Assembly (NCBI RefSeq): GCF_034702125.1
Contig: NW_026945742.1
Location: 62,001-126,000 of the forward strand
DNA from: Engraulis encrasicolus
Taxonomy: Eukaryota > Chordata > Actinopteri > Clupeiformes > Engraulidae
Direction: 5' to 3'
Length of the DNA stretch: 64,000 bases
Every line of letters starts with the position of its first letter. Within the stretch, counting starts at the first letter, position 1. Below, one piece after another: positions 19,995 through 47,008 of this stretch. The notes below the pieces were generated by a model that made no database searches, had not been told where the DNA came from, and saw nothing but the letters and a program-made list of their open reading frames with translations. The position numbers were made by a program, and so were the translations under genes.

Positions 19995-19998
19995 TTAA

Positions 19999-22321: not shown

Positions 22322-22329
22322 TATACAAG

Positions 22330-23460: not shown

Positions 23461-23469
23461 AGTGACATA

Positions 23470-24227: not shown

Positions 24228-25641
24228 TCCAAAAAAGTTGGGACACTTTGTTTGTTGTGAATAAAATAAAAATGCTGGCATTTTCAAAACATCCAATATG
24301 TTAATAAGGTAGAGCATTATGTACCGACAACATATCAGTTGTTAAAGTCAAGCAGAATTATTGTTTTGAGGTAATTATGTTATCATTTCAAATTTGACCC
24401 ATGCAACAAATCTCAAAAAAGTTGGGACAGGGCCAACACATGTTGTAATAGTTGGATAATTCTAAAAATAACACAAGGAAGAATATTTTAAAAGGAACTA
24501 TATTGACTGCCGACATGAATGCACAAATAAAATACCATCACAGAGAGGCTGTGGCACTCAGAAGCGAAGATTTTGAGGGGCTAATTACTTATCTATTACA
24601 CAGAAAGATTGAATTATCAAAATTGCAGGCATATAAGGCCTATTTCCGTAATATAGAGTTCTGTGTAATCATTGCATGAGTTATGAGATCATGACATACT
24701 CATCGTCAATAAGCAAACTATGACACTCCAACAATGACAGCTCTCGAAAAAATGACCATAAACACGAAACTTGATTAATGCACATGATGCAGACATTAAA
24801 CAGTGTTGCATGCGGAAAGCTCATTCTAGATGGACCTAGGAGACATGTGAAACTGTCCTCTGATTACAGAATGGAAAATATTTCATCCTTTTTTTAAATC
24901 TAGGAGTCATGCACCCTCCAGGTTATATAGAAAGTGAATACTTCAGCTTGATTTAGTTTTCAGTCTTAAAGAGGGCATATATGATGGTAAATGGGGGCAG
25001 AGGTGCCTTGGTTATGGTCTTCTTGCTCATGTAGAGCAAATGAATGAATGTTGAATGATAAATACAGACTTTAAACAGCATGCATAGCTACCAAGGCATT
25101 ATATTTTGGAGCACCGCCTTTAGATATTGCCCCATAACGGTGGCAAATGTCAATCTCTTCTATGTTCCAACAGTGTGGTTCCATCATAAGAGTAAACGGG
25201 TCACAAAATTGTTTTCTTGCAGTCAGGATATGCCACATATTAAGCATAACAAAAAGGTAAACAAGTTGAAGAACACACCTATCAGTTGAGCTGCTGAAAT
25301 CATGTCTTGCACATCAAAAGACTTAATTTTTGAATACAATTATGCCATCAGTCAAAGTATTTAACTGTTCAATCTCATCCCTTGCGTTGTGTTTAGTCTT
25401 ATCCAATATAAAAAGCATTTTATTGGCCCTGTCCCAACTTTTTTGGGATTTGTTGCAAGGGTGAAATTTTAAATGACCACATAATTACCTCAAAACAATA
25501 ATTCTGTTTGACTCTAACAACTGATATGTTGTCTGTAAATGATGTTCTACCTTATTAACATATTGAAGTTTTTGAAAACGCCACAATTTTGATTTTATTC
25601 ACAAAATACAAAGTGTCCCAACTTTTTTGGAATCCGCTTTG
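24228..25641. mobile_element. TA-flanked DNA transposon with about 215-bp inverted repeats, 1.41 kb
   Basis: The left end CAAAGCGGATTCCAAAAAAG and the complement of the right end are identical over the first tens of bases and stay similar for about 215 bases. Each repeat also holds a second block CCCAACTTTTTTG. TA flanks both sides (24226-24227, 25642-25643), as in Tc1/mariner-type insertions. The 1-kb interior has no transposase motif that I can see. A GT microsatellite follows at 25653-25679. Confidence 0.8.
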
Positions 25642-25648
25642 TATCATG

Positions 25649-25680
<32 letters not shown>

Positions 25681-25849
25681 ATCTGGACAATATGTAATGT
25701 CACTAGAATCCATACAGGCAACTGCTAGGCATTTACACAGAACACGTTGAACCTTGTTGATTAGCGCGAGTTCTTTATTGTGTATTTGTGTATGCTGTTG
25801 GACATCTCGATTTCAATAACAAACTGTATTATAGGGCTATGTAGGTAAT

Positions 25850-26050
25850 TTTTTTTTGCCTGTTTAGGTGGAAAATCATCATGGCTAAAGGAAACTCCAT
25901 TGTAACAGGTGCATTTTAGCCCCCTAACTGGATTTTTTTAAAAGCAGGATGTTTGATTCGTGGGTTTTAAAAATCTGCTACATTGAAATCCAAATCCAAT
26001 AGAACCAGAAGAGAAACATAGGCCTATCCAGAAAAACAAATTCATGCTAT
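25850..26050. mobile_element. Degraded copy of the MITE at 58374-58636
   Basis: TCCATTGTAACA.GTGC.TTT, AGCCCCCT.AAC.GGAT, TTTTAAA.ATCTGCTAC and CCAATAGAACCAG match the interior of the 58374-58636 element in order. The ends are decayed. Confidence 0.6.
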
Positions 26051-26384
26051 GCGGAAATTGCTCCTTAATCTCTATGGAATTCCTTTGTTGGCTATGCTAT
26101 TCTGTCAAAACACTCTTTCCTCTATCTTACAGAAAGCCAGTGACACGTTTTTGGTTTCCGTACATGTTAATATCCTATAGATAACACCAATGCCCTGCGG
26201 TCCAAATGAGAACACCCTACATCTAAAATGGTATTTAATACAGTCAGGAGCAAACACAAGTTGTATTTCTTTTAAAACAGTAACATGAAACATTTTACAA
26301 AAATGAAGCAACAGACAACAGGCCATGTTTTATGAGCTTGGAGTAATTATGAAATAACAATCACTAACTATGTATAGTCCATGG

Positions 26385-27083
26385 GGTTGGACAAAATAAT
26401 GACAGAAAGTAATTTTCAGCAAAGTGATTATTTAATTTCACAAATGGTCATATGTTATTAATAACAAGTTGGTATTATTAGTTACAGGGGCTGCACAAAA
26501 TAAGTGCAACACCTGTCATTTTAGTGTGGGAAGTTTCATGTCTTAAGTGGACCAGCCTGGTGACAAGATGCGTCTCTGGCTCCACAGGGTCAATATACAC
26601 GGCCGGTCACCCAAACATCCCTTTCAGACAGCTTCTTGCATCCAGAGTTAATCCTGTTGGATGTGCTTCATCCGTCTTGGTGGTATGCTGACATTACCTT
26701 GGATACCTAGGCTCTTGATAAATCACAAAGATTTGCTGTCTCGGTCAAAGATGCACCAGTTACACTCGCACAAAGAAAATCTCCTATTTTAACTCTGATA
26801 TGTCACCTATAATGTTGTGCGCATTGCAACATTTTGAGCATAACTGTGCTCTTTCCCTGCTAATTGAACCTTCTCACATCATCTTAATGGTGCAATGTGC
26901 AGTTAATGAAGATTGGCCGACAGGCTGGTCTACTTAAGTCATGAAACTTCCCACACTAAAATGACAGGTGTTTCACTTGTTTTGTCCAACAAATAATAAC
27001 AACTTGTTATTAAAAACATCTGAACATTTGTGAAATTAAGTCTTCACTTTGCTTAAAAGTAATGAATTACTGTCTTATGTCAT
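26385..27083. mobile_element. Tc1-like non-autonomous element next to the KDZ stop codon
   Basis: The left arm (26385-26557) and right arm (26936-27083) are inverted copies: CAAAGTGA, TAATTTCACAAATG, TTAATAACAAGTTG and CACCTGTCATTTTAGTGTGG with their complements. The right end lies about ten bases from the stop codon of the minus-strand KDZ gene, so the native 3' UTR of that gene is displaced or replaced. Confidence 0.75.
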
Positions 27084-27093
27084 GTGTAAGTGG

Positions 27094-30000
27094 TTAGCAG
27101 CCCAAAGACTGCCGGTTCAACTCTTCCATTTCTTCCTCTTCCATCTCTTCCTCTTCCATTTCTTCCTCTTCCATCTCTTCCTCTTCCTCATCCGTCAAGT
27201 CATCTTCCTCTTCCACCTCTTCTTCATCCTCATCCTCCTCACTGCTGTCTGCGACACCACCGTGGGTTTCTTGTGTGCAGACCCTGCTATACTGTCTGCC
27301 CACTTCCTCCAGATGTTGCCTTTGGTTGTGCAGTGTTGCCAGCAAGGCACATCTTAATCCTCTGGTCGCCTGCTCCGTCATTGCCTGTGAACAGCCTGGG
27401 CAGGACATGAAATGAAATGGAAAAAATACAGTTAATTGTTTTGGGTTCAAAAAATTTAGTAAGCCATTTCATCACCAGTCATTAATTCAATGTGAGGGAT
27501 AATAACTCAATATCTTACTTAAGTAGCTGCCACTGTCAATGACAGTCTGCAGCTTCCTGATATTGTTGTCCAGGCTCTGGCAGTGCTGCACCATTTCGCC
27601 GAGGAGAATTTTTCTTTCTTCCACCATCCTGCTAACAGAATTGACCTGGTCGAAGAGCCTCTTTTTCACATCAATCCCAGCTGGAGAGAAAACATAAAAA
27701 TTGGAAAAGTTGCAGTTCATGATGACTACTGGAGACCAAAGTATTGTAACTATGATACGATACGATTTGACTTTATTGTCAGTTTTCACTGAAATTATTT
27801 TTTGCATCCCTGAGCAACACTCACTTAAGACAGGACATACACATAACATCACAAGACTATTGCACCACTGACCAAAAACAAAAACAAGCCAGAACAAAAC
27901 AACCAAAAACACAGGACACAGGCCTATATACAGACAGACATGCATACAAACATTACATAACTTGAAGATCCTACCAACGTGGAGTTTTGCGCTGTTTTTA
28001 CAGAGAGACTACACCCGTCTCCAAAAGAGTTGTCGCCTATCCATCTGTTTGGAATAACAGCTAATAACCTGACTTTCAATTAATCACTTGGCCTCAGAAG
28101 TCACTCATATGAAAGCTACAACCCTCCCGAATGAAAATGTATGTACAAAAATAAATGTCATGCACCAAAGAAAGATTGACCCAGACAGGGCAGATTTTCA
28201 CAAGACAAAAGTTTTGTCGTCTATTGAACATAATGTGAAAATGAGCAGATAAGTCACTTCAAAACACTTCAAATACTCAGATCGGGTGTCATACTTAATC
28301 ACTCTCACCTCTCCAGAAAATCAACTTTGGATTTACGTGTGTGTTTGGGGTCATTGTAATCATGGTGCATTGAACATTGGTTGATGAAAAAAAAATGTTG
28401 TACATACATTTTCATTCGGGAAGGTTGTTGCTTTCATATGAGAGTGATTAATTGAAAGTCAGGTTATTAGCTGTTATTCCAAACAGATGGAGAGGCGACA
28501 ACACTTTTGGAGATGGGTGTATTATACCAAGCTGTACTGCAGTAAAGCATAACACTCTGGATTACAGATGTAATAAAATTAAAAGATTATTTGGGCATTA
28601 GCACCAAAGGATCTTAATCTTTGCAGGAAGTATACGTTGCTGTATGTTTTTTTAACATGTGAAGCCAATGTTGTCAGTCCAAGTCAGGTTCTGGTCAATC
28701 ATAACACCCAGTTTTTTATAGGAAGGGACTTGGCTGATGTCAGAGTCATGGATTTTAACAAGAAGTAGTTGGAGGTTGGGCGGTTTACCTCAGTTTTTAC
28801 GGTGTTAATGGTGAGGTAGTTGTCACACCAGTCAATTAACCAGTGCACATTGCTTTGGTACAAGCTGTGGTCATCAGATTTTGTGAGGAGGGTCACTAAG
28901 ATAGAGTCATCTGACTATTTGAGAAGATATTGATTAGGAACATTGGTGGTGCAGTCAGAAGTATCCAAGGTGAACAACCGGGTGACAACAACAGGGTGAA
29001 CAACTGCAATCAATAAGCCTAAAACTGTTATTGGGTCTGACCATCATGCTCCTTCTCCCAGGGCCAGATGTAGCCTCCTGCTGCTCTTGCTGCCTCCTCA
29101 GGGTCAATGGTTTCCCCCGACATGGCGTTGTAGAGGGAGATAGCCTGGCACAGATTTTCCTTGGCCAGAGCTATCTGTCGCCTACGCCTCAGCTTCTGGC
29201 CACTATTGGCTGCAAGTGTATAAGATAACAATCAGATGGGGGGGTGGGGGGAGGGGGTAGTTCACAAAAAGTTGACTTAGCATTATAATCATTAGATACA
29301 CAGGTTGACAGCTTAAGTAGTTATATAAATAGTATCGCAGCAGAAGTTTGGAAGCCACAAGTGTAGGTGTTGTTGATAAAATTATACAGACCACTGATTG
29401 AATGCAGGTCCTGCCGCCTCTGCTGCAGACTGAGGTAAAGCCCCTCCAAGTTGGCCCGCTGCTTGTCAAGGGGTCCTTTACCTTTGTTGTCTGTGATACA
29501 AAATGTAAATATAAAATGTAAATAAAAATGCAGTGTATGGTATAACTTCATTGTGCATTGTTTACACACACTTATACGTTGATACGTTTTGGAAACAGCA
29601 TTCATTATAAATTGATTTTATTATGTTGTTGTATGTTCATATTTACATAACGAACTGTTCCTTTTTCAGGTCTTATTTGTAATGTGTTTCACTTCGTCTT
29701 GCTATTGGAGGTTGTGTGAAGGCAGTTATGCACATGCCAGATGTTTTAACATTGCATTTGTTTTAATAGCTGCAATTTACATACTGTATTGAGATACAGA
29801 GGTTGGATGGCAATTGATTCAGAGCTTCTGAGCATCAATGTCTCACCGGTGATAGCCCACTGCCTCACATCTGCCACCCACTGGTCCAGCTGTTGTGGTG
29901 TGCATTGCAGGTCTGCCACAATTGCTTGGAGTTTTCTCTCCTCGCTCTGGTGTTTCTGTGCCACCTACAAAGGGGAAAACCATTTACGAAAAAGAAAAAT

Positions 30001-30179
30001 GACTGAAAACAGGAAGATCCTGCCATACATCAATAAATAAAAACAGTAGAGCATATGCTGTCTTTTTTGGTAGAGTTTTGGGTATACCTTGAGGTATCTT
30101 CTACAGAGAGTGACATGCAATGTCTCCACTTTACGTTGGTTCCACTCCAGGGCATGAATAGTAATTATATCCCGCCGTG
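27094..30179 (-). CDS. KDZ exons 11-16: C-terminal helical region and acidic tail
   Basis: Exons 30088-30179, 29847-29964, 29392-29490, 29042-29209, 27519-27680 and 27094-27395 are all open and in phase. They encode mostly charged, coiled-coil-like sequence (ALEWNQRKVETLHVTLCRRY; RRRRQIALAKENL) with a TIDPEEA-type segment. The tail is almost pure Glu/Asp/Met with EEEEM repeats, and the gene ends RQSLGC-stop. The acidic tail comes from a 15-base repeat (TTCCTCTTCCATTTC-like on + strand) at 27120-27200. Confidence 0.8.
27740..28995 (-). mobile_element. 5'-truncated LINE in KDZ intron 14
   Basis: Minus-strand sequence at 28995-28700 reads as an RT fragment: NVPNQYLLK, SDDSILVTLLTKSDD, WLIDWCDNYLTINTVKTE. 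One stop lies before SDDSIL. The 3' end near 27740-27790 has CAATAAAGTC and a short ATCGT-like repeat. A TA-flanked MITE splits it at 28012-28519. It is dead and shares the strand of the host gene. Confidence 0.7.
28012..28519. mobile_element. TA-flanked MITE nested in the LINE, 508 bp
   Basis: The left end CACCCGTCTCCAAAAGAGTT and the complement of the right end CACCCATCTCCAAAAGTGTT begin arms that match for about 160 bases with few differences. TA flanks both sides (28010-28011, 28520-28521). Arms of this quality suggest a young insertion. Confidence 0.85.
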
Positions 30180-30394
30180 CTATAAGTCAATGGAAATACA
30201 TACTTAAACAATTGATATTATCAAAATAAAAGATCCATTGAGTAAACATTAAAAGAGTTTAAAGGCCTGTCGCTTCATTGACAAGGCAACATAATGTGAT
30301 TATAACTGTGATAATGACGAAAACAGATACGGCTGTGTCGGCTGAACTTTTCTGCCATGGATACTTAGGTTGGTCAGTAGGACAGGTTACTCAC

Positions 30395-30779
30395 TGGATT
30401 TTGTCATGTACTTCGTTGTCAATGCCACCCTGGAGAGGAAACTGTTGACTTGCTCCACCTTTTTAAATTGAAAGAGCCCCGTGTTATGTAGTTATTAAAA
30501 CATGCTTGTGATAATTTCTCCATAATTTCTTCAACCTGAAGCCATTCAGATCATGTCTATAGTTAGAAATCACCGTAAATGAGTGGAAATCAATTTTACG
30601 CATTTGTAATACTTTTAGTTGGCTACAGGAGCATGGTGCACATGACAAAAGATGCTCACATCACCCTATCTCCCCTCCCATAATATACCATAATTGTGCT
30701 CAGCATTTAAAAAAGACTGCCATACCTCCTCTCCAAGGGTGTTACCTGCTCCAGTCTGATATTTTCCACTCCAAGTGAC
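30395..30779 (-). CDS. KDZ exons 9 and 10: third acidic motif
   Basis: Exon 9 (30726-30779) encodes VTWSGKYQTGAGNTLGEE. Exon 10 (30395-30458) continues VEQVNSFLSRVALTTKYMTK. GAG-x-T-x-GE-x-VE is the family's third acidic block. Borders are CTGCAG, GTATGG, AAAAAG and GTGAGT. Phases are 0/0 and 0/1. Confidence 0.85.
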
Positions 30780-30939
30780 CTGCAGCATGTTATGTTACAT
30801 TAAATCTTACATGTAAAGTTGTGTTCAACATAATAGACGTGTCTTTAAAAGAAGTAAGTGAGTAAATGTTCTAAACGCTTCAAGTTGATTGTACTGTCAT
30901 GAGCAAAAATGCATTGAGGAAACTGAACCAACCATAGTG

Positions 30940-31170
30940 CAAAAACTTCTCCATCACGATACTTGCACCACCATTAAACAAGATTAGGTAAGATTGTTCT
31001 TTCTGGGTCACAGTCACTTAGTTGGACGACATGCAAACAAAGAATTCAAGCCATAGTACACAGTGAAGATGGTTAGGCATGATAGTGCAAGCATCATGAT
31101 ATGGGGCTGTTTTCGCACTATGGTGTTGGTCCGATTTACCACATGCCAGGAAAAGGCACTGCTCTTACTC
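30940..31170 (+). mobile_element. Tc1-like transposase remnant in KDZ intron 8
   Basis: The + strand here reads GCAAGCATCATGATATGGGG, giving ASIMIWGCF, a conserved block of Tc1 transposases. It is preceded by decayed upstream sequence. No open frame survives. Confidence 0.55.
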
Positions 31171-31241
31171 TGAGCACAACTGGCACATGTACATGTCTAA
31201 GGTAATGTGTATATGGAATACTGCACGTAAGGGTCACTTAC

Positions 31242-31593
31242 CTCACACTTTGGTTTGTGGGCTTTGGCATGGAGCACTGAGAGCAATGGCTTCATGCTGA
31301 GGAGTGCATCGAATTCACCAAAGTGAAGAGCTGCCTTTCTCATATATGGCCAGTAGTGGCACATCTGGTCTGTGCAAAAAAACTGCACATTGAAACGGAC
31401 TGCCAGGTCCTGCTGCAGAAACATGGGGTAGGCAAAAACCTCGCCCCGGTACATATTTAAAGCTCTAAAAAAAAAAACCATGCCGACAAACTGCTATTTC
31501 CATGCCCTCCTCATCAAGGCAGCCACTGGCCTTCTTGGAGACCTCCTTCGCTGCCACCCATGTACTACTGCCACATGTACCTCTTCCAAGTCT
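31242..31593 (-). pseudogene. KDZ exon 8: central catalytic exon, frame shifted in a T11 run
   Basis: The exon encodes TWVAAKEVSKKASGCLDEEG, AVCRHG, then after the T run RALNMYRGEVFAYPMF, FFCTDQMCHYWPYM and LLSVLHAKAHKPKCE. Its 352 bases are one more than the phases of its neighbours allow. The T run (A11 on the + strand, 31467-31477) is where the two open frames meet, so a single extra T is the simplest explanation. TDQMC holds the second acidic residue and H-x4-H-x3-C is the family's metal-like motif. Confidence 0.8.
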
Positions 31594-31955
31594 CTAAAAC
31601 AACAAGTTTAGACAAAAATAATGAAATGGACATCCCCCTCACATTTATGTGGTAATAATACAGTTCAAAATAGAGAAGTCATGTGTGAAGGACATCAGGG
31701 AATCTCTTCCTGAAAAAAAGAAGTGAATAGGCCCACTTCAGACAAAGTTCTGGAATCAGGAGAGTTGAGTGAAGCTTCAAGTTTCATTTACCCTTACCCC
31801 TTTCAGGCCTGTCTGAAGTTTTTCCACAAAAGAGGCCACATCCTCATCAGGAGCGAAGAACAGGTCTTTAAATAAAGACTTGTCAGCACATCTGAAATAC
31901 AAAAACAATTGTAGAATACACACAGTAGTGGGTAGATACATAGGATATCAAGTGG

Positions 31956-31956
<1 letters not shown>

Positions 31957-32038
<82 letters not shown>

Positions 32039-32049
32039 GGGGGGGGGGG
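31957..32049. repeat. GT microsatellite with a G run
   Basis: About 78 bases of GT repeat followed by about 14 G, in the intron between KDZ exons 6 and 7, close to the exon 6 donor. Confidence 0.95.
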
Positions 32050-32075
32050 TTAGGGTTAGGCTGAGATCTACAAAC

Positions 32076-32257
32076 CCCTTGGATTTCTTGAAGCGATAAG
32101 CTTTTCTGTTGCCATCGGCGGAAACAGCCATCATTTTGGGACAGCATGCTGGGCACTGCATGACATCTTATTGAAATGCATGTCTGTTGACCTCAGACAT
32201 GGCGAATTTGTACTGGCGATAGCTATGCAGATATGCATCTCGCCCAATTTTGCCAGA
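32076..32257 (-). pseudogene. KDZ exon 6: CPAC and DGN motifs, with an in-frame TAA
   Basis: Read from 32257, the exon encodes a basic helix (SGKIGRDAYLHSYRQYKF), then codon 30 is TAA (32168-32170). The same frame then continues as DVMQCPACCPKMM and VSADGNRKAYRFKKSKG. The DGN aspartate is the expected first acidic residue of the catalytic core. Treating the stop as removed by an intron would need an intron of about 22 bases, which is implausible. A CAA or GAA to TAA change explains it best. Confidence 0.8.
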
Positions 32258-32944
32258 CTGTGAGGAAATCAGGGATGAAATGTAACTTCACATATATATG
32301 GTGCAAGTTTCTGTAAATGAATAATCACTATAAACAGGAAAATCTACATGTATGCAAGAATTCACACCCTGTATTATAACACTTAGTAACTACATTTGAT
32401 GCCCTCCACAGGTGTTCGGGTGTGTGGCATACTTTTTTTCAATGTTGCACTGAAGAGAAATAAGAACTATTGTTGAGAATTGATCATTTGTGCATTTTCT
32501 CAGGGCTCTCAAAAAAGCAATTGGCCATTTGCCCCTGTTCTGCCATGCAAAAGTTACCATTGCATTTACTACGGTATATGGCTGCAACTAAACAACGATG
32601 AAACAATGAACTGGTGTGCCAATAATGAGTTGTTTGTAATACATGTAGCCTAATGTTTGTCCATTACCCTTCCATGACGAATGGAGTTGGTTTCCAACAT
32701 CTTCACGAATGCGAAGCATGAGAAACTTGGTGCATCCAACTTCAGCTGGTCATAAATATTGAATATTTTGGTGTCAAACACTGTATGGTAGTGCTGAGGC
32801 GATGCTGGCCACATGCCACTCCTGACCAGATCCACCATGTCAGGAGCTGCCACCGTCTCGCAGGTCTGACAATAGGCCTCAGGGACCATCAGATCAAAAC
32901 GTCCTATTGTAGAATGGGTAAAGCAGAATGAAATATCTACATCA

Positions 32945-33180
32945 GTGTTTCTCAACAGGGGCGGTGCCGCCCCCCAGGGGGTGTTGGGGAGTTGTAGGGG
33001 GGTGTTGAGAAGGATACAGCTGAGAGGGGGTGGTGCTTAGTTTCCATTGGGGGACATTAGTGCATTTCATTTTTTAATACTAAGGTCTTATGTATGGGTT
33101 ATGATGAGGTCAAGGGGGTGTTGGGAAGCTTGTGATGAAGCCAAGGGGGCTTTTGTTCAAAAACGGTTAAGATCTAGCTG
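32945..33180. mobile_element. hAT-like fragment
   Basis: CAGTGTTTCTCAACAGGGGC and repeated GGGGGTGTTGGG blocks resemble the CAGTGTTTCTCAAC end of hAT elements. The other end is decayed. It lies in the large KDZ intron 4. Confidence 0.5.
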
Positions 33181-33406
33181 ATAGTAGATCACTGATCTAG
33201 TATGGAGGCCATCATCTGTAGGACAGTAGGGCTATACACAGACACAATAATGTATCATGGTGCAAGAAGGCAACATTGTGACACACTCTTTCTAAGACAA
33301 AAACAGAACATGTTCAGTTTAAGGTATAAGGTTGTAAAAAGTGTTTCTTCATTTCATAACTATTTAAGTCTAATAAAGAAAGAATTTTACAGTTGTACTA
33401 TTTTAA

Positions 33407-34500
33407 AGTCAAAGGTTTACATACACCTCATTAGAATTAGGTGTAAATGTGTTCACGTCTGTCTATATACACCACCTGCTGTCTACGGAGAGATAAGAGA
33501 GGATGCATAACATCCTGCGTAACTGCCATCATACTGCCCGTAACTTGTTCTAACTGGACATAGAAAGTAAGGCCTATGTAGAATTTTGGATGAATTATGG
33601 ATTTGTACAAGAAGGTGTTACATCCTGCTGGGCATTGCTGCCTGTCGCACCTCCTCCGGTGCCCATGGGTCAGCTGCAGGGTCATCAGTCGGGAACCACG
33701 TGTCATCAACGGTGCCTGTAGAAGACCGTGGGCTACTTACAGAGAGTCTCTGAGACAACAGAAGCCATCCGTATGCTTTAATATCTAGGCCTATAGCATA
33801 CGTGTCAGAACACTCAATTTCAGTATACGTGTGAACTTGTACTATACGTGTCTGATTTAGAAGTGGACTATATAAACTTGTTCCACCATTTTGAGAACCT
33901 TACTTTGACACAAGATTTTGTCATTTTCTTTTTACACTCTATTTTCCTATTTTTCTTTATTTCCTTACTTTTTCTTAACTTTTTGTAATCTCACTTTTCG
34001 ACAATAAATTGTATCCTGATTTGACCCTTTTAATTACGAAGACGTCAAGACTTATCTTATTTTTGTGAGTGAGTTAGTCAAACACAACGCAGAGTATTCA
34101 GCCTTCAATTTTTGTTGGAGAAGAGAATTTTGGAACACCTCCAAAATCTAACACCTACAGGTCCCAACACACACAAACTAAAAGACTGCCTATACCACCT
34201 GGCTATAAGACTTTTGAATTCAGAGGGCTGTTGAGATATACTACAGTATCACTACTGCCCATACCATTTACATTGGGTTATTTATTGGGGAAAAAAAACA
34301 AAAAATCTTTAATCCTGGACTGGGCATGACAACTCATGAGAATTAATGTAGGTAAACCTGTGACTTTGATGTAAATCCAAGAAATATTGGTAAACATTTC
34401 TCTCATTAATGTTTTAACTGGAAATAATGTTTATTGTTCAGTTCCTTTGAAAGTGTAGTCCTTGACCAGACAAACTAAGAATGACCAGACTGACAAACTC
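33407..34500. other. Intron 4 of the KDZ gene: Tc1 end fragment and unrecognised DNA
   Basis: AAAGTCAAAGGTTTACATACACC at 33405-33427 looks like a Tc1 terminal repeat without a visible partner. The rest up to about 34500 has no gene or repeat end that I recognise. Confidence 0.35.
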
Positions 34501-35109
34501 CCGTTCAGACTTTCTTCTTTATTGATCATGTCTGAATATGGTATACAACTACAATAAACAGAAAAAGGGGGGAAAAAACAAAAACAAATGAGCATCGATA
34601 GTAGTAGTAGTTAGGGAGCAAGAATGCTCTGGCATACTAACAGTGCAAAAACAACAATGAAGGCAACTGTTAACCGGCATAAGACAAAAGCACAGAACTT
34701 TCCTGATTACTCATTACAACTTGTTCTGTTAATTTTTAGCTTTTGCTTTCAGAGGGATTCACACGTAAACCGTGGAGGGTGATCGTCCAATTACCATCAT
34801 CTACAGTAGATTACTGTCAATGAATAGGACTGCTTCCTGTAGTTGTGAAATAACTAGTAAATAAATTACATGGAGTAAAACCATTTGCATTGGAAATAAC
34901 TTTTTTTTTTCGTCAATCAAATTTTAAAGTGATACTGTCCCATTTTTGGAAATAGGCTAATAATAATAAGCCCAAGGAGGGGCAAGGGGTAGTCCTATTC
35001 TTTTGAGGGACAATGTGGGTCAGACCCTGGCGCACTCATGCGTCACCATCACCATCAGGTCACATCTAATCAGTTGAAATTTGATACTTTCGACATAACA
35101 TGGCAATGG

Positions 35110-35290
35110 AACTAGAATGAAAGTGGTGAGTTAACACCACGGCATGGAAATCTACGGGTTATATTGAAGAGTGATGTGTGGGTCACCAGATCAAACAACC
35201 AAAAACAGCTGACAGCAAAGCATCAAGGAAATCTGGGCTTCCATAACGCCCATGCAAAGCCTCTGTCATTAACTTCAATGACAAAGACAG
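35110..35290. repeat. Third partial copy of the foldback arm
   Basis: GTGTGGGTCACCAGATCAAAC, ACAGCTGACAGCAAAGCATC and TCTGGGCTTCCATAAC match 36240-36350 in the same orientation and 35870-35960 in inverted orientation. It is therefore a separate duplicated piece beside the main foldback element. Confidence 0.7.
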
Positions 35291-35442
35291 TCCTAACCAA
35301 GTATTGAACCATTGACATGTTATGTAGAAAGTGACAAATTGCAACTGATTTGATGTGACCCGAATTTCTCTATTTTTCCCCGATGAAAACTGTAATTATT
35401 ATTACAATATTCTAATGATGTGAATTCCTCGATTTATGTTTA

Positions 35443-36633
35443 TTTTTTTTGGAGCTGGAGGGCCAAAATATGCAAACGGATATGTATAGATATACTGGTC
35501 CTTCTCAAATAATTAGCATATTGTGTTAAATTTCAATTTTTCCCCCACAATGTAATGATAAAAACTAAACTTCCATATGTTTTACATTCATTGCACAACA
35601 ACTGAAATATTTCAGGTCTTGTATTGTTTTAATATTGATGATTGTGGCATACAGCTCATGAAAACCCCAAATTCCTATCTGATCTGAAAATTTGCATATC
35701 ATGAAAAGGTCGTCTAAACAAGCTAGGAACCTAATCATCTGAATCAATGAATTAACTCTAAACACTGGTAAAAGCTTCCTGAGGTCCCAGCCTGGTTCAT
35801 TACTCAAAACCGCAGTCATGGGTTAGACTGCTGACCTGACTGTGTTTAACATTGAAGTCAATGGCAGTGGCATTGCATGAGGGTTATGGAAGCCCAGATA
35901 TCATTGATGCTTAGCTGTCAGCTGTTTTTTATTCTTTGATCTGGTGACCCACACTTCCCTTGTCATTATACCCCATAGATTTCTATACCACGCTTAGGTA
36001 CTTTGGTGGTTACAGAGTTCTGACAGTCCCAGACTGTACTGCAGTAGTCGTGATTTTGGTTCAAATGTTCATTCAACGCATTTTCGCTTGGGGCCCCACC
36101 TGACCCTAGAATCGCTGGTAATGGATATTCTAAATCAGCCAGAACATTGCATTGATAGTCAATGGGGTTTCATTTCTGGCAAATTAGAATGTGCATAACA
36201 CCAAAGCACCAAAACGTGGTATGGAAATCTATGGTGTAAAATCAAGAAGGCAGTGTGGGTCACCAGATCAACCAACAAAAACAGCTGACAGCAAAGCATC
36301 AAGGATATCTGGGCTTCCATAACTATCATGCAATGCCACTGTCATTGACTTCAATGTTAAACGTAGTCAGGTCGGCAGTGTAAGGCAGCTTTTGCCAGTA
36401 TTTAGAGTTAATTCCTTGATTCAGATGATTAGGTTAATAGCTCGTCTAGAGAACCTTTTGATGATATGCACATTTTTTGAGATAGGAATTTTCATGAGCT
36501 GTATGCAAAAAAACATCAATATGAAAACAATACAAGACCTGAAATATATTGGTGTGCAATGAATCTAAAACATATGACAGTTTAGTTTTTATCATTACAT
36601 TATGGGGAAAGCACAATATCCTAATTACCTGTA

Positions 36634-36721
<88 letters not shown>

Positions 36722-36765
36722 ATATCCATTTACGTATTTTGGCCCTCCTGCTCCAAAAAAAACCA
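35443..36765. mobile_element. Tc1-like foldback element with arms over 500 bp
   Basis: The left arm (35443-36010) and right arm (36190-36765) are inverted copies. Outer blocks are GGAGCTGGAGGGCCAAAATA and its complement. Next come TTAGCATATTGTG, CAGCTCATGAAAA and CAGATCAAA..GTGACCCACACT pairs. A GT microsatellite (36637-36717) has grown inside the right arm. The AATTAGCATATT and CAGCTCATGAAAA motifs are familiar from fish Tc1-like elements. The loop (36010-36190) has no coding capacity. Confidence 0.75.
36637..36717. repeat. GT microsatellite
   Basis: About 80 bases of uninterrupted GT, lying in the right arm of the foldback element. Confidence 0.95.
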
Positions 36766-36785
36766 CACACACACACAATCACTGG

Positions 36786-36982
36786 CCACTACATTAGGAA
36801 CACTCGTAACAACTGCACATTGAGGCAAATTTTTGATCAGCCAATCACATGGTGGCAACTCAATGCATTTGTGCGCGTAGACATGGTCTGATGCAGTTCA
36901 AACCGAGCATCATAAAGGCAGGCAGTTCTGAAAGCAAAAGGGGGTCCAACCCAGCATTAGAGAGGTGTTCCTAATGATGTGG
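36786..36982. mobile_element. Short MITE, 197 bp
   Basis: The left end CCACTACATTAGGAACAC and right end GTGTTCCTAATGATGTGG are inverted copies. A fragment of the same family in the opposite orientation lies at 42500-42545 (CCACTTCATTAGGAACACCT). Both are in KDZ introns. Confidence 0.8.
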
Positions 36983-37487
36983 ATATATATATATATATTA
37001 GTTTATCACTAAATCTTGGGCCTTATATGACACAGAGCATAACAGGTATGCCTATTAACATAAACATTGCTCAACCAATGTGTTTAATTTCCTTCTAAAT
37101 AGGCCTACAGGAAATATAAAGTGGCCTAAAGATACAATGTTATCAGTGCTTAATCCACACATCCCGAATAAATATATCAATCAATCAATGAATAAATAAG
37201 CAACACTATTTAGACAATGTAGACATTGTCAGTATATCCATGTGAAAAACATAAGTGAACATAATTTCAGTCTCTTGAAAAGACCCATAGGCTACTTTAT
37301 ACGCCTTTGTTTACCTTTAAGGACTTGTATTATTTAAAATAATAATTTTAGCAAGCTACAACATCACAGCATTTGGGGTAAACGCTTGGATTTAGCTTTT
37401 CTTAGCTGACAATTCCTGCTCATATGTTTATTCTATTACAAATGCCAGTGAGGTTCGTAATGGGATGCAGGGTGGCACCATGTATTT

Positions 37488-37784
37488 CAGAGGTGGGGAA
37501 CCTTTTTCATTCAAGGGGCCATTTCAAGTCATCCGGGGGCCGTACTATGAACACAAACCAGGAATTACTCCTGCACTTTAGTCCTACGTGTATATTGAAG
37601 GCAGCCAGCTTAACAGACCCCTTTTTCTCTTGATCCCCTGAATATAACTTAATTGTATTGCAAATGTATTTTCCAAGTTTCTTATATTATGTGAAGTTGC
37701 ATAACATTAAAACTATATTGGGGGGCGGATAAGGCAGCCTCTAGGGCCGCAAACAGCCCTCGAAACATAGGGTCCCCACCCCTG
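37488..37784. mobile_element. hAT-type (Charlie-like) MITE, 297 bp
   Basis: The left end CAGAGGTGGGGAACCTTTTT and the right end GGGTCCCCACCCCTG pair. GGGCCA blocks follow the left end. Flanks ATGTATTT and GTGTAGTT are a weak 8-base match. A related left end is at 18817. Confidence 0.7.
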
Positions 37785-38385
37785 GTGTAGTTGAAATATC
37801 TAGTCATCTACTGTGTCATCACATGTGCAAACAGCTTGCATTTAGCAATAAACCAACAGGTAACAGACTTCCTGCATCACTGACACATTCTGTTGCAAAT
37901 GTGATGGACTAGTGTTTGTTTTCACATTCATCCAAGGTCGCACAGTGTTGTTGGATTGTCCTAACTGGACAAAAAGTCAGCCTACATTTCCCTCGCATCA
38001 TGATGTGCGCTTGGCGTCTGTATCGAGAACTGCCATAGCGCGCATAACAAGGAATTTTAGTCGGTTTGCTGCTAGGGCAAGGTGTTAAAAGTTAGCATAG
38101 AATAAAGTCATATCCCACCTCTGACTTGCTGTGATGCAGGTGGGTCTTAGAACCCCTGTGTGACTGTCTACGTTTCAGGGATAGAGAGACTTTTTTTCTT
38201 CGAGCACACTTGATTATGCAGGACAAACTAAATCTGTGGGACGCATGATTTGGGCTTCAAACACGGCACACGCACGCGCTACGTGGGACAGGTGGTCAAC
38301 CTACTTGGGCCACTCATTGCTCTGTGAGAGTCTTTCAAACCACCTGGAGGTCTCTGCTTTTTCTAGGTGGACCAATGTAGGAGGG

Positions 38386-39782
38386 GGCTCTGAATTGTGT
38401 GCTGCTGTGTGTGTGTGTGTGGTGTGTAGGCTCTTGGAATATACGTCTGTGGAGGAGACAGATGCAGTTGACAGCTGTGGAGGAGTGTGGAAGGTTAGCA
38501 TGGAAGGTGCCGTTGTTGCGGATGCTGCCTCTGCAGCTGCTCTAGAAGAGACGGATGTTACTGCTGCTGCTGCTGTCGCTGGTTTTGCTGCTGCTGACGA
38601 TGAAGCTGATGTTACTGCTGCTGCTGATGATGATGCTGATGTTGCTGCTGCTGCTGCTGATGATGATGCTGATGTTACTGCTGCTGCTGATGATGATGCT
38701 GATGTTGCTGCTGCTGCTGCTGACGGTGCTGCTGATGTTACTGCTGCTGCTGCTGACGGTGCTGCTGATGTTACTGCTGCTGCTGCTGACGGTGCTGCTG
38801 ATGTTACTGCTGCTGCTGCTGACGGTGCTGCTGATGTTACTGCTACTGCTGCTGACGGTGCTGCTGATGTTACTGCTGCTGCTGCTGACGATGAAGCTGA
38901 TGTTGCTGCTGCTGCTGCTGGAGATGGTGGAGATGGGGGGGGTTGAGGGGTTAGGGTTAAGTGACTGGAGAGAACACGTCTGTGCTCCCCGCTGTGACTT
39001 ACCTGAAGTGTGTGCTGATGTGGATGTTCATGTGGTGCGGATGCTATTGGCATATACTTATGTGGAGGAGAGAGATACAGTCATACCTGTCAACTTTGAG
39101 CTACCAAAAAGAGAAAAAAATCAGGGAAAAATCACTGATTTATAGGTGCTCAATACTTCAGGACTCTAAAGATGCATATGGACTTTTATTTTTTATTTAT
39201 TATACTGTTTATATATATTTTATTTTGTGGGCATCTGTGGGTTGATTCATATTTTGAAGGACCTGGAATTTTTGGTTGTATCTTCTGCCATAAAATCAAC
39301 TGACAGGTTGCTTAATAAACAAGACCCTCTCTATTATTCACAGTAGAATGTGGTGTGGGTCGTCAGGCGAACTGATAATGGGAATAATTTGTGGACTGAC
39401 TTTTTTTTTGATAATGTGAATAATATTTTGCGAGAAAATACCAAATTGGGATGACAGCGGGAAATAAGTCATACATAGGTTGTTTCCTGTGAAAATGGGG
39501 AGGGTTGACAGGTATGGATGCAGCTGACTGCTGTGGAGGAGTGTGTGTGTGTGTGTGCATGGGGGGATACTGCCTCTGCTCTTGGTGATGATGATGATGA
39601 TGATGATGATGACGACGACGATGTCGGTGTGGAGGAGACACATGTTGTTGATCCTGTTGCTGGTTGTTTTGTCACTGTAGAGATAGATGATGTTGCTGCG
39701 GAGGAGGAGGAGATAGATGATGTTACTGTTACTGCTGCTGCTGCTTGTCCAATGCTTTTGTTGCTGTTGAGAATATAGATTA

Positions 39783-39813
<31 letters not shown>

Positions 39814-40190
39814 TGGTCTTTTGTTGCTGTGGAGAAGATAGATGTTGCTACTGCTGCTGCTGTGGAGGAGACGGATGATGTTGCTGCAACTGCTGTTACT
39901 GCTGCTGCTGGTGTTTGTTCTTTTGTCGTTGTGGAGCAGATAGATGATGTTGCTGCTGCTGGTTCTTTTGTCACAGTGGAGGAAATAGAAGATGTTGCTG
40001 CTGCTGCTGCTCCTTTCTCTGCTGTTGCTGTGGAGGAGACGGATGATGCGGTTGTTACTGCTGATGATGGTTCCTTTGTCACGGTGGAGGAGATAGATGT
40101 TGCAGCAGCTGCTGGTTCCGATGCTGCCACTGGAGATTGTGGACATGTCTTCATGAGGTATGGAGAAGGGCTGGAAAAACTCTGACCGGG
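38386..40190 (+). repeat. Trinucleotide and 33-bp repeat region in KDZ intron 4, open on both strands
   Basis: GCT, GAT and GTT triplets dominate. From about 38690 to 38890 an imperfect 33-base unit repeats (coding ADGAADVTAAA in one frame). A flanking block GTGGAGGAGACAGATGCAGT recurs at about 38446 and 39061. From 39530 to 40185 the + frame reads as a degenerate FVTVEEIDDVAAA-type motif repeated many times; the minus strand is open as Ser/Ala/Thr-rich sequence. It may be a decayed low-complexity gene or simply an expanded satellite. A hAT-like element is inserted at 39082-39516. Confidence 0.6.
39082..39516. mobile_element. hAT-like MITE inserted in the triplet repeat region, 435 bp
   Basis: The left end CATACCTGTCAACTTTGAG and right end AGGGTTGACAGGTATG pair. 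Flanks GATACAGT (39074-39081) and GATGCAGC (39517-39524) match at six of eight bases. Comparison with the uninterrupted copy at 38446-38490 shows the empty site. Confidence 0.75.
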
Positions 40191-40905
40191 CTAAGGAGCA
40201 ATCACTCTGGTCATACAGAATGGCAGTCGTAAGGCCAGGTGGGAATGAGCACAGAACTTGTAACATCTGTGGTGTTCTTTAAGCTGTTTTTCTTTTCGGT
40301 CTGCGTGACATTCTTCTAAACCATCTGCATTTTTCTAGGGTGTGTGACGTGTTGTGAAGTGGACAGTAATTTAGCTGGATCGGAGTCGTTGTCTGCTCCC
40401 TAGGGTGAACAATTTGCATCGAAATCACATGAAATGGAATTATTTAAAATGTCTTAAATCAATCCAGTAAAAAAACTGGGACAGAATAGGCTGTACAGAA
40501 AAATAATCCTAAATCACCTTAAACTGGACAGGTTCTGATTTAAAACCAGGAAATGAGACAAAAATATGATACTGTGTCCTGATATACAGTATATAACATA
40601 CAGTGTATGTACTGTATATATCCATATATTGTAAAGAAAGCAAGCTTTTCAAATCAAGGTCTCACCATTTGAAGACACATACCTTTCATGGTTACTAATG
40701 TGACGGATCGTCCTGGCCTGACCTCTACAGAGGCTCTGCAGGTGGAGCAGGCACCAGGGAAAGCTACTGGGAGCAGCCGGGCTGTAACCAATGGAGAAAG
40801 AAGAGCACATACAAATACAGTATGTGAGTAAAGGAAGATGGCTCAATACTTTTGGCAATATAGTGTATATTACATGATTATAGAATCAACACTTTATGCT
40901 CATAC

Positions 40906-41277
40906 CCTCTGAGACGAGGGAGTATCCGTCGCTGGATTCCACGATGATGTCAGTGGGTGGGATGGGCTTAAAGAAGCCATTCAGCATGTGCTCCCGGTCA
41001 TGCAAGACATGGTGGCGATGTTTGAGGTCACACCTGCTGCAAAAGAAATGCCTTGGGAGGCAATCAAGGCAGCGAACAACGGCATTTCTTCCACAATAGC
41101 TGCATGATGTGTCCCCCACTTCAGCTGCAGACAAAAGGGCATCCAGAAGACCTGGCCGTGCAGCTTCCCACCTCTCATGGACGACAGTCTGGCGGACAGA
41201 CCACTGTCCCTTGGCTTCTGGAGGCTCTTCAAATTCTGGCAGCCCAGACAGCACCTCCTGCAATGCTGCCAGGCAGT
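40906..41277 (-). CDS. KDZ exon 3: B-box-like zinc cluster
   Basis: The exon runs from ACTATTTAG to CAGAGG|GTATGAG. Its second half encodes a Cys/His array: CSYCG, CLDC, FFCSRCDLKHRHHVLHDRE, then GFFKPIPPTD. Spacing and the HDRE end resemble a B-box and the CxC-type cysteine clusters reported with KDZ transposases. The likely role is DNA or protein binding ahead of the catalytic core. All Cys and His positions look intact. Confidence 0.8.
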
Positions 41278-41437
41278 CTAAATAGTAAACATGGTTACCA
41301 AATATTACAGTCAATTTACAGGCAGTTAAATAGGCATTCATCTGAAACTGCCTTACTGGCAGGGTCCTCCCACCCTGACTATGTACACTTTGGATAAAAG
41401 AGTCAACTTAATATAGTGAAATACTGAATATAGCACT

Positions 41438-41660
41438 TTTCATACATGAAAAGGGGGATCTTCTCCATGCTCAGAAATAGCCATTTTTAACTGCAAAAAA
41501 GACTGTACTTGGGCCATACTAGAGAATATTAGTTTATGACTTAGTAAACTTTCATGGAAATATCAAATTTGGCGATAGGCAACCCAGTTTCAATGAGGAG
41601 CATAGTTGTTGTACCTTTTTTGACCATTTCCTGCACAATGTACCTTTACTGTAAATATTG
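41438..41660. repeat. MITE-like repeat in KDZ intron 2
   Basis: It starts near CATGAAAAGGGGGATCTTC, the same motif as the hairpin at 10966-10997, and has GAGGAGCATAG near 41600 and ends near CACAATGTACCTTTA. The interior (CATTTTTAACTGCAAA, AGAATATTAGTTTATG) matches 10070-10180 just upstream of the chromodomain gene. The same family therefore flanks or enters both genes. Confidence 0.55.
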
Positions 41661-41859
41661 GATGGTGGAATAATAAAAAAGAATTTTACCTGCTACTTCA
41701 TTTGATGACGCCGAAGTAACATCTGCAACACAGAAAAATACGGTATTGATGTGAGCATTACAAAAAAATCTGCAATCAGCAGGGCACTTCAGTCATGGAT
41801 GGAGGAACATGCAACTCTGTGATCTTCAGTCCAACTCCCTAACCCTTACACCACAGCTG

Positions 41860-42120
41860 TGAACAAGTATTCATGTTTTTTGGGGGGTGACCATGAAACC
41901 CACAATTAACCATGTTTTTTTTCCAGTAATATTCAGTAATATATTCAGTAATATTTTTTTCCATGGTTAGTCAGGGACCACTGTTTTCATGGTTACCCAA
42001 AGAACATGGATAAGCCATAATACTACTGTATGACTGGTTCAGAGTACTTAGATAAACTATGGTTACTACAATAAAACCATGCTCACTACAGTAAAACCAT
42101 GGTCGATTTTCGTAAGGGAT
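41860..42120. repeat. Degraded repeat rich in CCATGGTTA
   Basis: Inverted occurrences of ACCATG and CATGGT with TACAGTAAAACCATGGT resemble a common fish MITE. The ends are not clear. It lies in KDZ intron 1. Confidence 0.4.
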
Positions 42121-43044
42121 AGAGTAGAGTAGATTACTTATATTCATTCTGATACACATTACTGCACATTGCACTAAACATATATAGTAAAATCTGAGTA
42201 TACACATAAACAGACAGACAGACAGACAGACTCAAACACAAAATGACTTTTATTTGGACCCAAGAGACAGGCATTAAGGTACAAGATCCAAATATTTAGG
42301 ATTAGCTAATGACAGCTATTGACAGGCCGACAAATTTAAAAGACTTTGACATGCCAGAATAGTTGTTGACAAAATTGAACCAGCATTCAAGGATAAATGA
42401 AACAGCTCCATCTCCATATTTGCATGCTACCTATTATAGCTGAAACAGAGCACATTTTTGCCAGTGTTTTTGCGGCCCCCTTTGCAGTCCTGCAATCTGC
42501 CACTTCATTAGGAACACCTCTCTAGTGCTGGGGTGGACTAGCCAGGCCGTGTCCTCCTAGTGACGCAACAGCTTCACCGTTGCTACCAGTCAGGCCACGA
42601 GCAATGTAAGTCCTTTCTGAGTTCCCGAAAATACGGGATCTCCTCCCACTTTGATGGGAAGCAAACAATCATTAGCAAACCAAGGGAGAAGGAGAACCAT
42701 GGGGAAATGTTAATTGTTATGCTATTGGTCACAGGCTAGGGGTAGACCTTTATCCTTCACAACTGCCTGAACTGCCAGCAACAATACTTGGTTGTGGCAT
42801 TCCAACAAAGTACCAATAAGTGCAGGAGCAAGTTCATATTAAATAAGAAAAAAAAACCTTCTTGAGACCCGTTGGCCTTTTCTTTGCGGGCACGCTTCGA
42901 AGGCCGCGGATTGGCAGGGGGCAGTAGAGAGATGGCAGCTGCAGAAGCTGCTGCATTTTCGAGAAAGACATCTCCCAAGATCAATGCAGCTTCCAGGCGC
43001 TCGTTATTGCAGTGGCCAGCCATTTAGACAGGCCGTGTCTGAGA

Positions 43045-43050
43045 CAGAGT

Positions 43051-43103
<53 letters not shown>

Positions 43104-43141
43104 AAATAGAGCAAAACAGAGCAAGAGAGAGACAGAGAGAG

Positions 43142-43201
<60 letters not shown>

Positions 43202-43375
43202 GAGAAAAAGAGCAAAAGAGAGCAAGAGAGAGACAGGGAGAGACACAGAGACAGAGACAGAGAGACAGAGAGAGACACACAGAGAGAGAGACACACAGAG
43301 AGAGAGAGAGAGAGCGAGCGAGAGAGAGAGAGAGAGAGGGAGGGAGAGAGAGAGAGGGAGGGAGTGTGTGTGTGT
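43045..43375. repeat. GA/GT microsatellite directly upstream of the KDZ start codon
   Basis: GA repeats (about 43048-43113), a GT run of about 50 bases (43147-43199), and then more GA-rich repeats begin about 25 bases before the KDZ start codon at 43023. They occupy what should be its 5' UTR or promoter. The long open frames here are artefacts. Confidence 0.95.
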
Positions 43376-43399
43376 GTTATTGAGAGTCAGTGTGAGAGA

Positions 43400-43683
43400 G
43401 GAAGTATTGTGTTTTTTTCTTTTCGTAAGTAGATGAGAACATCAGCACTATAGCAAGATATTTAGGGTGAGTAATAGAAGAGAGAAGAGTGTAAGAAAAA
43501 CAGAGAGAGCCAGACAGGAGTGGAGAGAAGAGAAAACAAGATTATGAATACGTTGTGGGGAGCCTGTTAAATTTAACAATGGAGAAATGAAATGTAATTA
43601 AGATCATCACTGATAACCGTATGCATCCATAGAATAGGCCTACATAGATGGATAAGGTTTGGGACGTAGGCCTATTTGTTAGC

Positions 43684-43715
<32 letters not shown>

Positions 43716-46700
43716 TAATAGTTGCATTTGTATATCACTATATCAGACTGCAACCCTTTGGGTATATCTGATTATGTTGATTAAATGTTGAGTTCCCACA
43801 AGGATGTCACAAGTCCTGGGATTTGTAATGGCTACGTTTACTTGAGACATGATGCAGCAGAAGGGTGTAGTAGGCATATCTCATGCAAGTTGCAGCATAG
43901 CCTACCGTGTACGTCACATGTTAGGACGATAACTAAAGTAGACTAGAACAAGTCATTAAAATGAATACATGTTAATTGCATGTGTCACGATGAACAATAT
44001 CCACTGTTGCCAACTCCCTGGAGAAAAAACAAAGGACTTCTCATTCTCACGGAGGTGGGTCCTCACCCAGTAAAGTTTGTATTTATTATGTGCAATTTCC
44101 TGCATTTCAACAAAATTGCGTCCCGTTTCATATGCGTATAGAACCGTAGTTTTGTTTCTAAATAGGCCCACGGGACGTATTTCCAGATTTCCCCTTATTT
44201 CAAGGGACGTGTGGCAGCTACCGGGGTGACTCGCCAGCTATAGGACTGACAAAGCAAGCTTCTGCTAATCTGAACGCAATTGAACTTATTCCAACATTGC
44301 ATTACGTAGAATTCTCATATAGGAATAACTTTGACTGGACACGCTTAAATATTCGACATGCAATGTACGCAAATGTAATTATCGTCTGCTGAGACAACAT
44401 TGATCTGCATGCTTACCTTTTTCGCATTCTGGATTTTTTTTTATGTGAACCGGCGGCAGCGCGCTAAACGAGTAGACGTTTCCGGAAAGGCTCGGAAAGT
44501 GTAGAAGTTTCCGGAAAGGCTCGGGAAAACCCGCACATAGCCTACAGTGTGTATAGGAAATGTGTCGGCGTTGGCATAACACGAGATAAGGAGAAAATGC
44601 GTTGTAGCAACACGCCTTAGTGGAACATCGATATGCGTGTTATACGTACGCCAATTCAAGAGAACAGTCTGCTGTTGGTGTTTGTATCAGCACGCCAAAA
44701 GTTACCTCACTAACGTTAATGATGTGCTTTGCTGAGTAACCTAGCCAAATATATCCAGATAATCGTGAATAATGCAAAATAAAGTATGCCAACATGTATT
44801 GCCATTCTAGGAGCGATAGGCCTAAGGAGAATGCCGCACAGGCGCGGAGAAAGGGTTCCTTTGACACAGAGAATGCTGTGTGTGTCTGCGCGCATGCAGT
44901 GTTTGGGTTTGCAGGTTTCAGGCAAATAATGGTGATCGATACGCCCTAGGTCCATAACACTAACAGTAAAACAGGGACAATGACAAAAGGGATGAATTGC
45001 TTGAGGAAATCAAAAGGGACAGAGCGAAGTTATGACAACAAATTGACGTGCACCATTATGCAAGGCTACATGTAGTTATGATGGGTTAACCAATCAGTTA
45101 CCGTTGCATTAATAATATTTATGATAAAGATGACTTCAACGCAGGATATCAGAAATAAACAAGACAGCGCAGATGGCTTTTAATTTTTAATATGGCCACA
45201 TTACGCGTCAATACGCCAATGCGTATTAGGCTATTTTTCATGAAACCTCAAATCGGAAGTAGCCTTATCTTGTACCCAGCACTTTTCAAACCTTATCAGG
45301 TTTATGATAATTGTCCGGGCCAGCACTTTTGAAATCAAACGGACGCCCTTGCCTGCATGACATGTCATTTGCATGATAAGAGCATGGACGATCATGGACA
45401 TACGATGGTACACACATAGCCACACACGCACACAACACGGTTCAGTTCAACGTTTATTGACCAGCAAGCGAGCAGCGCAGTACCAGCTGATTTGCTCTGG
45501 AATCTCGAAATGAAAACTGACTTCTCTTGGGAAAAGTGTTGCAAGAACATTGAACTCATTTAGTAGGCCTATCATTGTGCCAACCGTGTGTCGCAATATT
45601 GTGCTGGGGATAGGCCCTATGTGTTGGGGAGGACAATAACCTTTGGCCTATGACAAATACATTATCGGGGAGCATTGAGGATAAATCTTACCCGTTTCCT
45701 TATTAATGGAAAATTAATTCCATGCTTTAGAAAGTATTCAAGAACCTAAACAATATGTAATTGCTCCACAGTTCAAGGGTTAGGCTATTTATTCAGTGAG
45801 GTTGTGGATATTGACACCTTTCCTCCGCGATCGAGGATAGCCCCCACCTTTGCGCTTCTCATCTGGCTGTCACGATATGGAACGGGAAGAGAGCGCGCAG
45901 TTCAAGACAAGCGGCATGACTGCAATTGTCAATACAGTAGCCTAAACAACTGTTAAATGTTCAGCGGTGTCTGTAGTCAAATTATCACAGCGGTGGTAGA
46001 TGATTTTATGAAGACCTGGAGGACAAAAACCAACAGACACAATTGCTGAGTGTGTATGCAGTATTTGTAACGAATGATTCTCCTGCCAGGATAGCGTTGG
46101 ACTACAGAATAACCCATGTACATGTTGAATGTTGAGAGGAGGCATTTTGAAAAGTCGAAGACCTATTCACGAGGATATCATAGCTACCTTTCCTTGTCAA
46201 TGTCCCATGCACTACAAAATATTCAAGAACCTCATCTGCGATAGGCCAAACACAATTTATCCAACAAGCTTTTAGATAATATTGCCACCTTTCCCCTCTC
46301 CTGTGGTGGCCAGTTGCCTTCTCAGAAGAAGCAATCTGAATCGGAAAGAGAGCGCACTGTTCAAGACCCGCGGCAAGACTGCAATTGTCAGCTGGTCCGT
46401 GGTGTCAACCTTCAGCCAAAACGGTGACAGGCCCTTTTTTTTATAAGATAGACCTACCTTATTCGCAGCAGCCAAAATCAGTCAGAAAATAAGTTCTTAA
46501 CGAGTATGTGCAGGGTAGCGAATGCTCTTTTATCAGGGTAAAGTTTGCAATTGGAGAGGGGTGATTGAAGGGCTAAATTAAGTCTGAAATCAAAATGATA
46601 AAAAAACGGTCGATTTATTTACAATACCCTACATGACAGAAAGAAAACGTGCAGGGGGTCAACTGAAAATAGCCATAAACTGAGGACTATAGGCAACGTC

Positions 46701-46955: not shown

Positions 46956-46986
<31 letters not shown>

Positions 46987-47000: not shown

Positions 47001-47008
47001 AACACAGC

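Follow-up and report, generated by a model that had tools for sequence, protein, structure and literature searches.

The KDZ transposase gene of the window

The window analysed here is a stretch of 64,000 nucleotides from the anchovy Engraulis encrasicolus (RefSeq assembly GCF_034702125.1, contig NW_026945742.1, positions 62,001 to 126,000 of the forward strand; a part of contig C1270 in our numbering). Between positions 43023 and 27094 its minus strand carries a KDZ transposase gene of 16 exons, which we consider very probably to be a recently inactivated copy of an old, intron-rich DNA transposon of the CxC3 type. All 15 introns are bounded by GT and AG, and the joined exons amount to 2593 nucleotides, i.e. 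863 codons, a stop codon and one surplus base. The exons, the two lesions that interrupt them and the stretch that recurs on contig C8 are as follows.

42858..43023, minus strand: exon 1, start codon and 55 codons; weak donor GTTTTTTT; N-terminal match to loach protein P0004
41690..41722, minus strand: exon 2, based on splice sites only; no homologue match seen
40906..41277, minus strand: exon 3, B-box-like Cys/His cluster
40683..40781, minus strand: exon 4, in which CxC3 begins
32668..32903, minus strand: exon 5, CxC3 cysteine cluster
32076..32257, minus strand: exon 6, CPAC..DGN with the first catalytic Asp candidate
32168..32170, minus strand: in-frame TAA in exon 6, where the partial copy on C8 has GAA
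31798..31891, minus strand: exon 7, missing from the C8 copy
31242..31593, minus strand: exon 8, core of the KDZ domain, TDQMC (second Asp candidate) and HAKAHKPKC
31467..31477, minus strand: frame-shifting run of 11 T in exon 8; the C8 copy is likewise out of frame
30726..30779, minus strand: exon 9, GEE of GEEVEQ at its end (Glu candidates)
30395..30458, minus strand: exon 10, VEQ at its start
30088..30179, minus strand: exon 11, where the KDZ match ends
29847..29964, minus strand: exon 12, homology support
29392..29490, minus strand: exon 13, homology support
29042..29209, minus strand: exon 14, homology support
27519..27680, minus strand: exon 15, homology support
27094..27395, minus strand: exon 16, acidic Glu-rich tail and stop codon
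29781..33238, minus strand: stretch duplicated, introns included, at C8 14,169,452-14,173,238

The loach protein (LEAALLLGDVFLD) matches exon 1 (LEAALILGDVFLE) despite the weak donor of the latter. An earlier, sequence-only reading of this stretch had described 16 exons with consistent phases that encode an 863-codon protein. The exons, splice sites and length stand, while the uninterrupted frame does not, neither the TAA nor the T run having been mentioned there. The surplus base sits in the T run of exon 8, after which the frame runs into a TAG, and the 863 codons can be read only by skipping one T. Owing to these two lesions the gene lacks the open reading frame of a functional transposase. 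Among the motifs named in that reading, the Cys/His cluster, CPAC..DGN, TDQMC, GEEVEQ (split over exons 9 and 10) and the acidic tail are all present, and its H-x4-H-x3-C has to be corrected to H-x3-H-x3-C.

When read through both lesions, the protein matches the KDZ catalytic domain (PF18758) with 112.7 bits (E 2.6e-32; residues 345-564, in exons 6-11; profile positions 3-217 of 217) and, N-terminal to this core, the CxC3 domain (PF18804) with 69.4 bits (residues 195-299), the Pfam cut-off being 26.6 bits for each. Without read-through, CxC3 reaches 57.2 bits in the frame of exon 5 alone, and neither of the two exon 8 frames passes the KDZ cut-off (21.9 and 21.0 bits). The cluster in exon 3 scored 18.7 bits as an ANCHR-like B-box, below its cut-off of 27 bits, and CxC7 was absent among the Pfam matches of the protein at E ≤ 0.1. 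The catalytic candidates (DGN...D...E) are kept, and an RNase H-like integrase fold is predicted for a relative. The KDZ assignment, which was to fall if exons 5-10 gave no KDZ match, is supported by the profiles (CxC3 as well as KDZ), by the homologues and, for a relative, by the predicted fold; the KDZ match and the homologues lie well outside what chance would produce.

A protein search in which 7997 candidates were scored listed 30 homologues, all of them carrying KDZ, all from bony fishes by name, and 35-51% identical to the window protein (E 2.9e-96 or better); a search with a nine-row alignment also listed 30, of which 28 were the same. The closest of the aligned proteins is P0021 from an eel (47% identical), and a gene tree of 43 rows (the window gene and 42 of the 130 proteins found) groups the two with support of 100/99, with a warning from the program of long-branch joining. 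To judge from these sequences, an eel would hold the nearest relative of the window lineage among the proteins found. The gene model of P0021 itself joins a fragment to a kinase domain. The fish proteins with CxC3 and KDZ (P0021 and P0017 from the eel Synaphobranchus, LOC110971783 from Acanthochromis, and those of Arctogadus, Culter and Sardina) have the domain order, motifs and acidic tail of the window protein and, where complete, a comparable length; they differ from it in sequence, at the low identities just given, and are annotated as uncharacterised or hypothetical.

A young mobile family in the same genome

Seven places in the anchovy genome gave identical weak KDZ scores, and the six that were fetched, at 30 kb each, have a sharp-ended block in common. 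In the copy on C21 this element measures 10,397 bases, has terminal inverted repeats of 201 bp that are 98.5% identical, and carries the CA..TC ends of the family. Over the longest aligned piece of each pair (4.2-6.8 kb), the six copies are 98.9-99.8% identical, with 1-12 mismatches. A search with 120 bases of the ends found at least 41 places (best 40 of 212 candidates scored), among them at least 28 left ends (97-100% identical), at least 12 right ends and a single partial match. The loci assigned to the family are these.

Places L009-L026 and L030-L047: young-family copies on contigs C2, C3, C4, C5, C6, C7, C9, C16, C17, C18, C19, C21, C1281 and C1824

The flanks of 15 copies were compared for a target duplication of 7 bp: all seven bases are identical in nine copies, six of seven in four (one of them with an N) and five of seven in one, the remaining copy being unmatched. 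Two of the nine perfect duplications count for little, being situated in GT repeats. No copy exceeded three of eight matches when an 8-bp duplication was sought in the same 15. The locus at C22 16.99 Mb (L029), with neither end in the 10 kb examined, was excluded from this count. In the copies on C19 and C21 neither a stop nor a frameshift interrupts the 15 exons, and a spliced alignment limited to the last 8,400 bases did not yield the full exon set for the other four of the six. RefSeq annotates the family as protein LOC134436995 (C21; 100% identical over 99%), which carries both CxC3 and KDZ. This family moved recently and carried its introns along; it shows that intron-rich KDZ elements related to the window gene jumped very recently in the anchovy genome.

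Aligned over 719 columns, the window protein and that of the young family share 41% identity, and 11 of the 15 window introns coincide with introns of the young family (within two alignment columns, in the same phase). As for the others, J15 is displaced by seven columns without a change of phase, the young family has no counterpart of J9 (inside GEEVEQ), and J1 and J2 fall outside the compared part; two introns of the young family are in turn absent from the window gene. That a mobile family has kept so old an intron set means that the window introns are ancestral to the transposon lineage. Since it shares 11 of 15 in place and phase, they are inherited transposon structure and not a sign of domestication. 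What further separates the young family from the window gene, for all these likenesses, is its mobility, with terminal repeats of 201 bp, 7-bp duplications and near-identical copies.

A second pair of KDZ places, at C22 13.48 Mb and C24 12.14 Mb, was searched for ends and proved fragmentary and rearranged; the former has a 365-bp inverted repeat without a 7- or 8-bp duplication. At C16 48.298-48.340 Mb a minimum of seven KDZ places stand in a row, with a spacing of about 1.4-1.6 kb for five of them, in what looks like a tandem array.

Copies, flanks and the state of the window gene

We searched the assembly (1.43 Gb) with the read-through protein and scored the best 55 of 161 candidates, a scope that also limits the count of full copies. 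The 63 matches comprised 14 window exons, six on C8 (at about 14.17 Mb) and 43 distant relatives. Among the places scored, no full copy other than the window gene was found, and exon 1 occurs once in the genome; since this one full and one partial copy were found where several dispersed full copies might be looked for, we file the locus as a KDZ transposase gene and not as a shown mobile element. The C8 copy aligns in three pieces that are 91.7, 96.5 and 97.6% identical (gaps counted) and holds exons 5, 6 and 8-12. Window positions 31686-32036, exon 7 included, are missing from it, and exons 1-4, 7 and 13-16 were not found in the 20 kb examined there. Mismatches between the two copies number 24 in 1098 aligned exon bases (2.2%) and 46 in 1967 intron bases (2.3%), and the codons compared differ by seven silent and 15 replacement changes (dN/dS 0.56). 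Because exons and introns have diverged equally and dN/dS stands at 0.56, both copies look largely unconstrained since their split, though 22 changes are few.

A single full copy with no terminal repeats found, with its catalytic and zinc motifs kept in long open exons, is also what a host gene domesticated from a KDZ transposase might present, and Zisupton-derived genes have been reported in fish and other vertebrates (PMC3424704). Such a gene, intact in living fish, would turn both lesions into assembly errors or a private allele, yet the lesions themselves, the T run of the C8 copy, which is out of frame too, and the equal divergence of exons and introns speak against it. Domestication also sits poorly with a nearest relative, P0021, at 47% identity in the alignment and with the want of a near-identical anchovy protein among the 30 listed matches. 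The number of introns is no argument for it, the mobile family having them too. We regard this origin as improbable.

Element ends were sought between 17000-27093 and 43024-53000 as inverted ends of 24 bp (at least 18 matches) next to a duplication of 7 or 8 bp (at most one mismatch). No pair was found, and a control with reversed flanks gave one for 7 bp and none for 8 bp. A blastn comparison of the flanks returned 11 inverted matches at E ≤ 10, of which the best cluster (21879-22037 / 49280-49397) has scattered identity and may represent common hAT-like tips. The end motif of the young family was not found in the window at up to three mismatches. On the upstream side (best 40 of 724 candidates), 43440-44673 has nothing elsewhere but one matching piece of 39 bases, and 44674-45400 lies in a high-copy repeat present at 96-98% identity in at least 39 other places, so that no second copy marks a boundary. 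The search for further copies that had been proposed as a way to the element ends thus yielded the C8 fragment but no ends, and the description of the element as near-complete holds for its exons, all of which are present, but not for its frame, broken twice, or its termini. Downstream, a 650-bp inverted-repeat element at 26410-27061 starts about 30 bases beyond the KDZ stop codon.

The complete exon set, together with the recent movement of a related family, could be taken to indicate that the transposon is intact and still autonomous, its ends having been missed and its lesions being errors of the assembly. This would have to accommodate two lesions, the absence of a near-identical full copy among the places scored, a scan of 10 kb per side that yielded no terminal repeat next to a duplication of 7 or 8 bp, and the position in introns of the other inverted-repeat insertions, and it seems to us very unlikely.

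An inactivated copy of an old transposon, the reading that we prefer, has several points to contend with as well. With no terminal inverted repeats or target duplication found within about 10 kb on each side, the copy is not shown ever to have been a discrete element, although an old element can lose both. Weak constraint is compatible with a dN/dS of 0.56 on 22 changes, and further copies could have been missed with 55 of 161 candidates scored. Foldseek alone gave no match at E ≤ 0.001. The lack of a protein nearly identical to the window gene among the 30 listed fits a pseudogene, yet is only an absence. Finally, the assembly was built from PacBio continuous long reads polished with Illumina data (PMC13403563), so that the length of the T run could be an assembly error; the TAA, as a substitution, is less likely to be one.

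Further features were seen within the introns of the gene and elsewhere in the window.

35141-36762, intron 4, and 28010-28521, intron 14: nested inverted-repeat insertions resembling miniature inverted-repeat transposable elements
40191-40443 and 38301-40278 (minus strand), intron 4: possible remnant of a retroelement gag zinc knuckle, with Ser/Ala-rich repetitive frames beside it; 40191-40334 had no Pfam match
59193-60863, plus strand: open frame of 557 residues with a P-loop GTPase domain (Septin 35.0 bits, AIG1 33.0 bits)

Relation to Zisupton, Kyakuja and other fish elements

The many introns of the gene had been thought worth describing in themselves; Zisupton elements, first characterised in fishes, are already described as multi-exonic (PMC9297572), so that many exons are to be expected. 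The platyfish Zisupton (PMC12730594, PMC12062965, PMC9297572) resembles the window gene with its 16 exons in being a multi-exonic KDZ transposase gene of a fish. It carries CxC7, which was defined on it (PMC12062965), at residues 1333-1393 and makes 8-bp duplications (PMC12730594), whereas the window protein, of 863 codons, has CxC3 and no CxC7 match, and its mobile relative makes duplications of 7 bp. The label Zisupton-type, in its narrow sense, is therefore not supported. Kyakuja, also a KDZ group, has the 7-bp duplications and the 5' end CA of the young anchovy family, but it is fungal, ends in CA..TG, has no terminal inverted repeats reported, and in the described families carries a TET/JBP gene (PMC12730594). 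With its 7-bp duplication, long terminal repeats (201 bp), CA..TC ends and CxC3, the young family matches neither of the two in full. The main text of the anchovy genome paper (1.4 Gb, 24 chromosomes, GCF_034702125.1; PMC13403563) mentions neither Zisupton nor KDZ, and no account of a fish CxC3-KDZ element with 7-bp duplications was found in a search that left most subscription literature outside.

Some KDZ proteins are very similar between distant fishes: 92% identical over 771 residues between pike and goldfish (P0012/P0038), 93% over 597 between catfish and culter (P0057/P0006), and 89% over 494 between elephantfish and culter (P0128/P0006). Their grouping in the tree conflicts with the kinship of the species, and on these sequences they are candidates for horizontal transfer.

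By analogy with its relatives, a living element would produce a spliced transcript and from it a transposase of about 860 amino acids. The zinc clusters (B-box-like and CxC3) may bind DNA or chromatin, the RNase H-like core (DGN...D...E) would cut the element at its terminal repeats, and the element, introns included, would be pasted at a new site with a 7-bp duplication. The window lineage itself would once have moved. We are evenly divided on a wider proposal, in which fish CxC3-KDZ elements would form a vertebrate DNA transposon group apart from Zisupton (about 10 kb, at least 15 exons, terminal repeats of about 200 bp, 7-bp duplications) that keeps its full ancestral intron set through transposition and passes horizontally between distant fishes, with the window copy as an old side branch and members passing as ordinary multi-exon genes in databases.

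Taken alone, the window copy is a modest find, a further fossil of a known transposon type. It gains in value because a family whose recent movement is clear shares its intron set, so that the presence of introns in such genes must not count as proof of domestication or of an ordinary host gene. The 7-bp duplication, against the 8 bp of Zisupton, provides a simple structural test by which fish KDZ elements can be divided, and the young family could serve to test how a gene with at least 14 introns survives repeated cut-and-paste.

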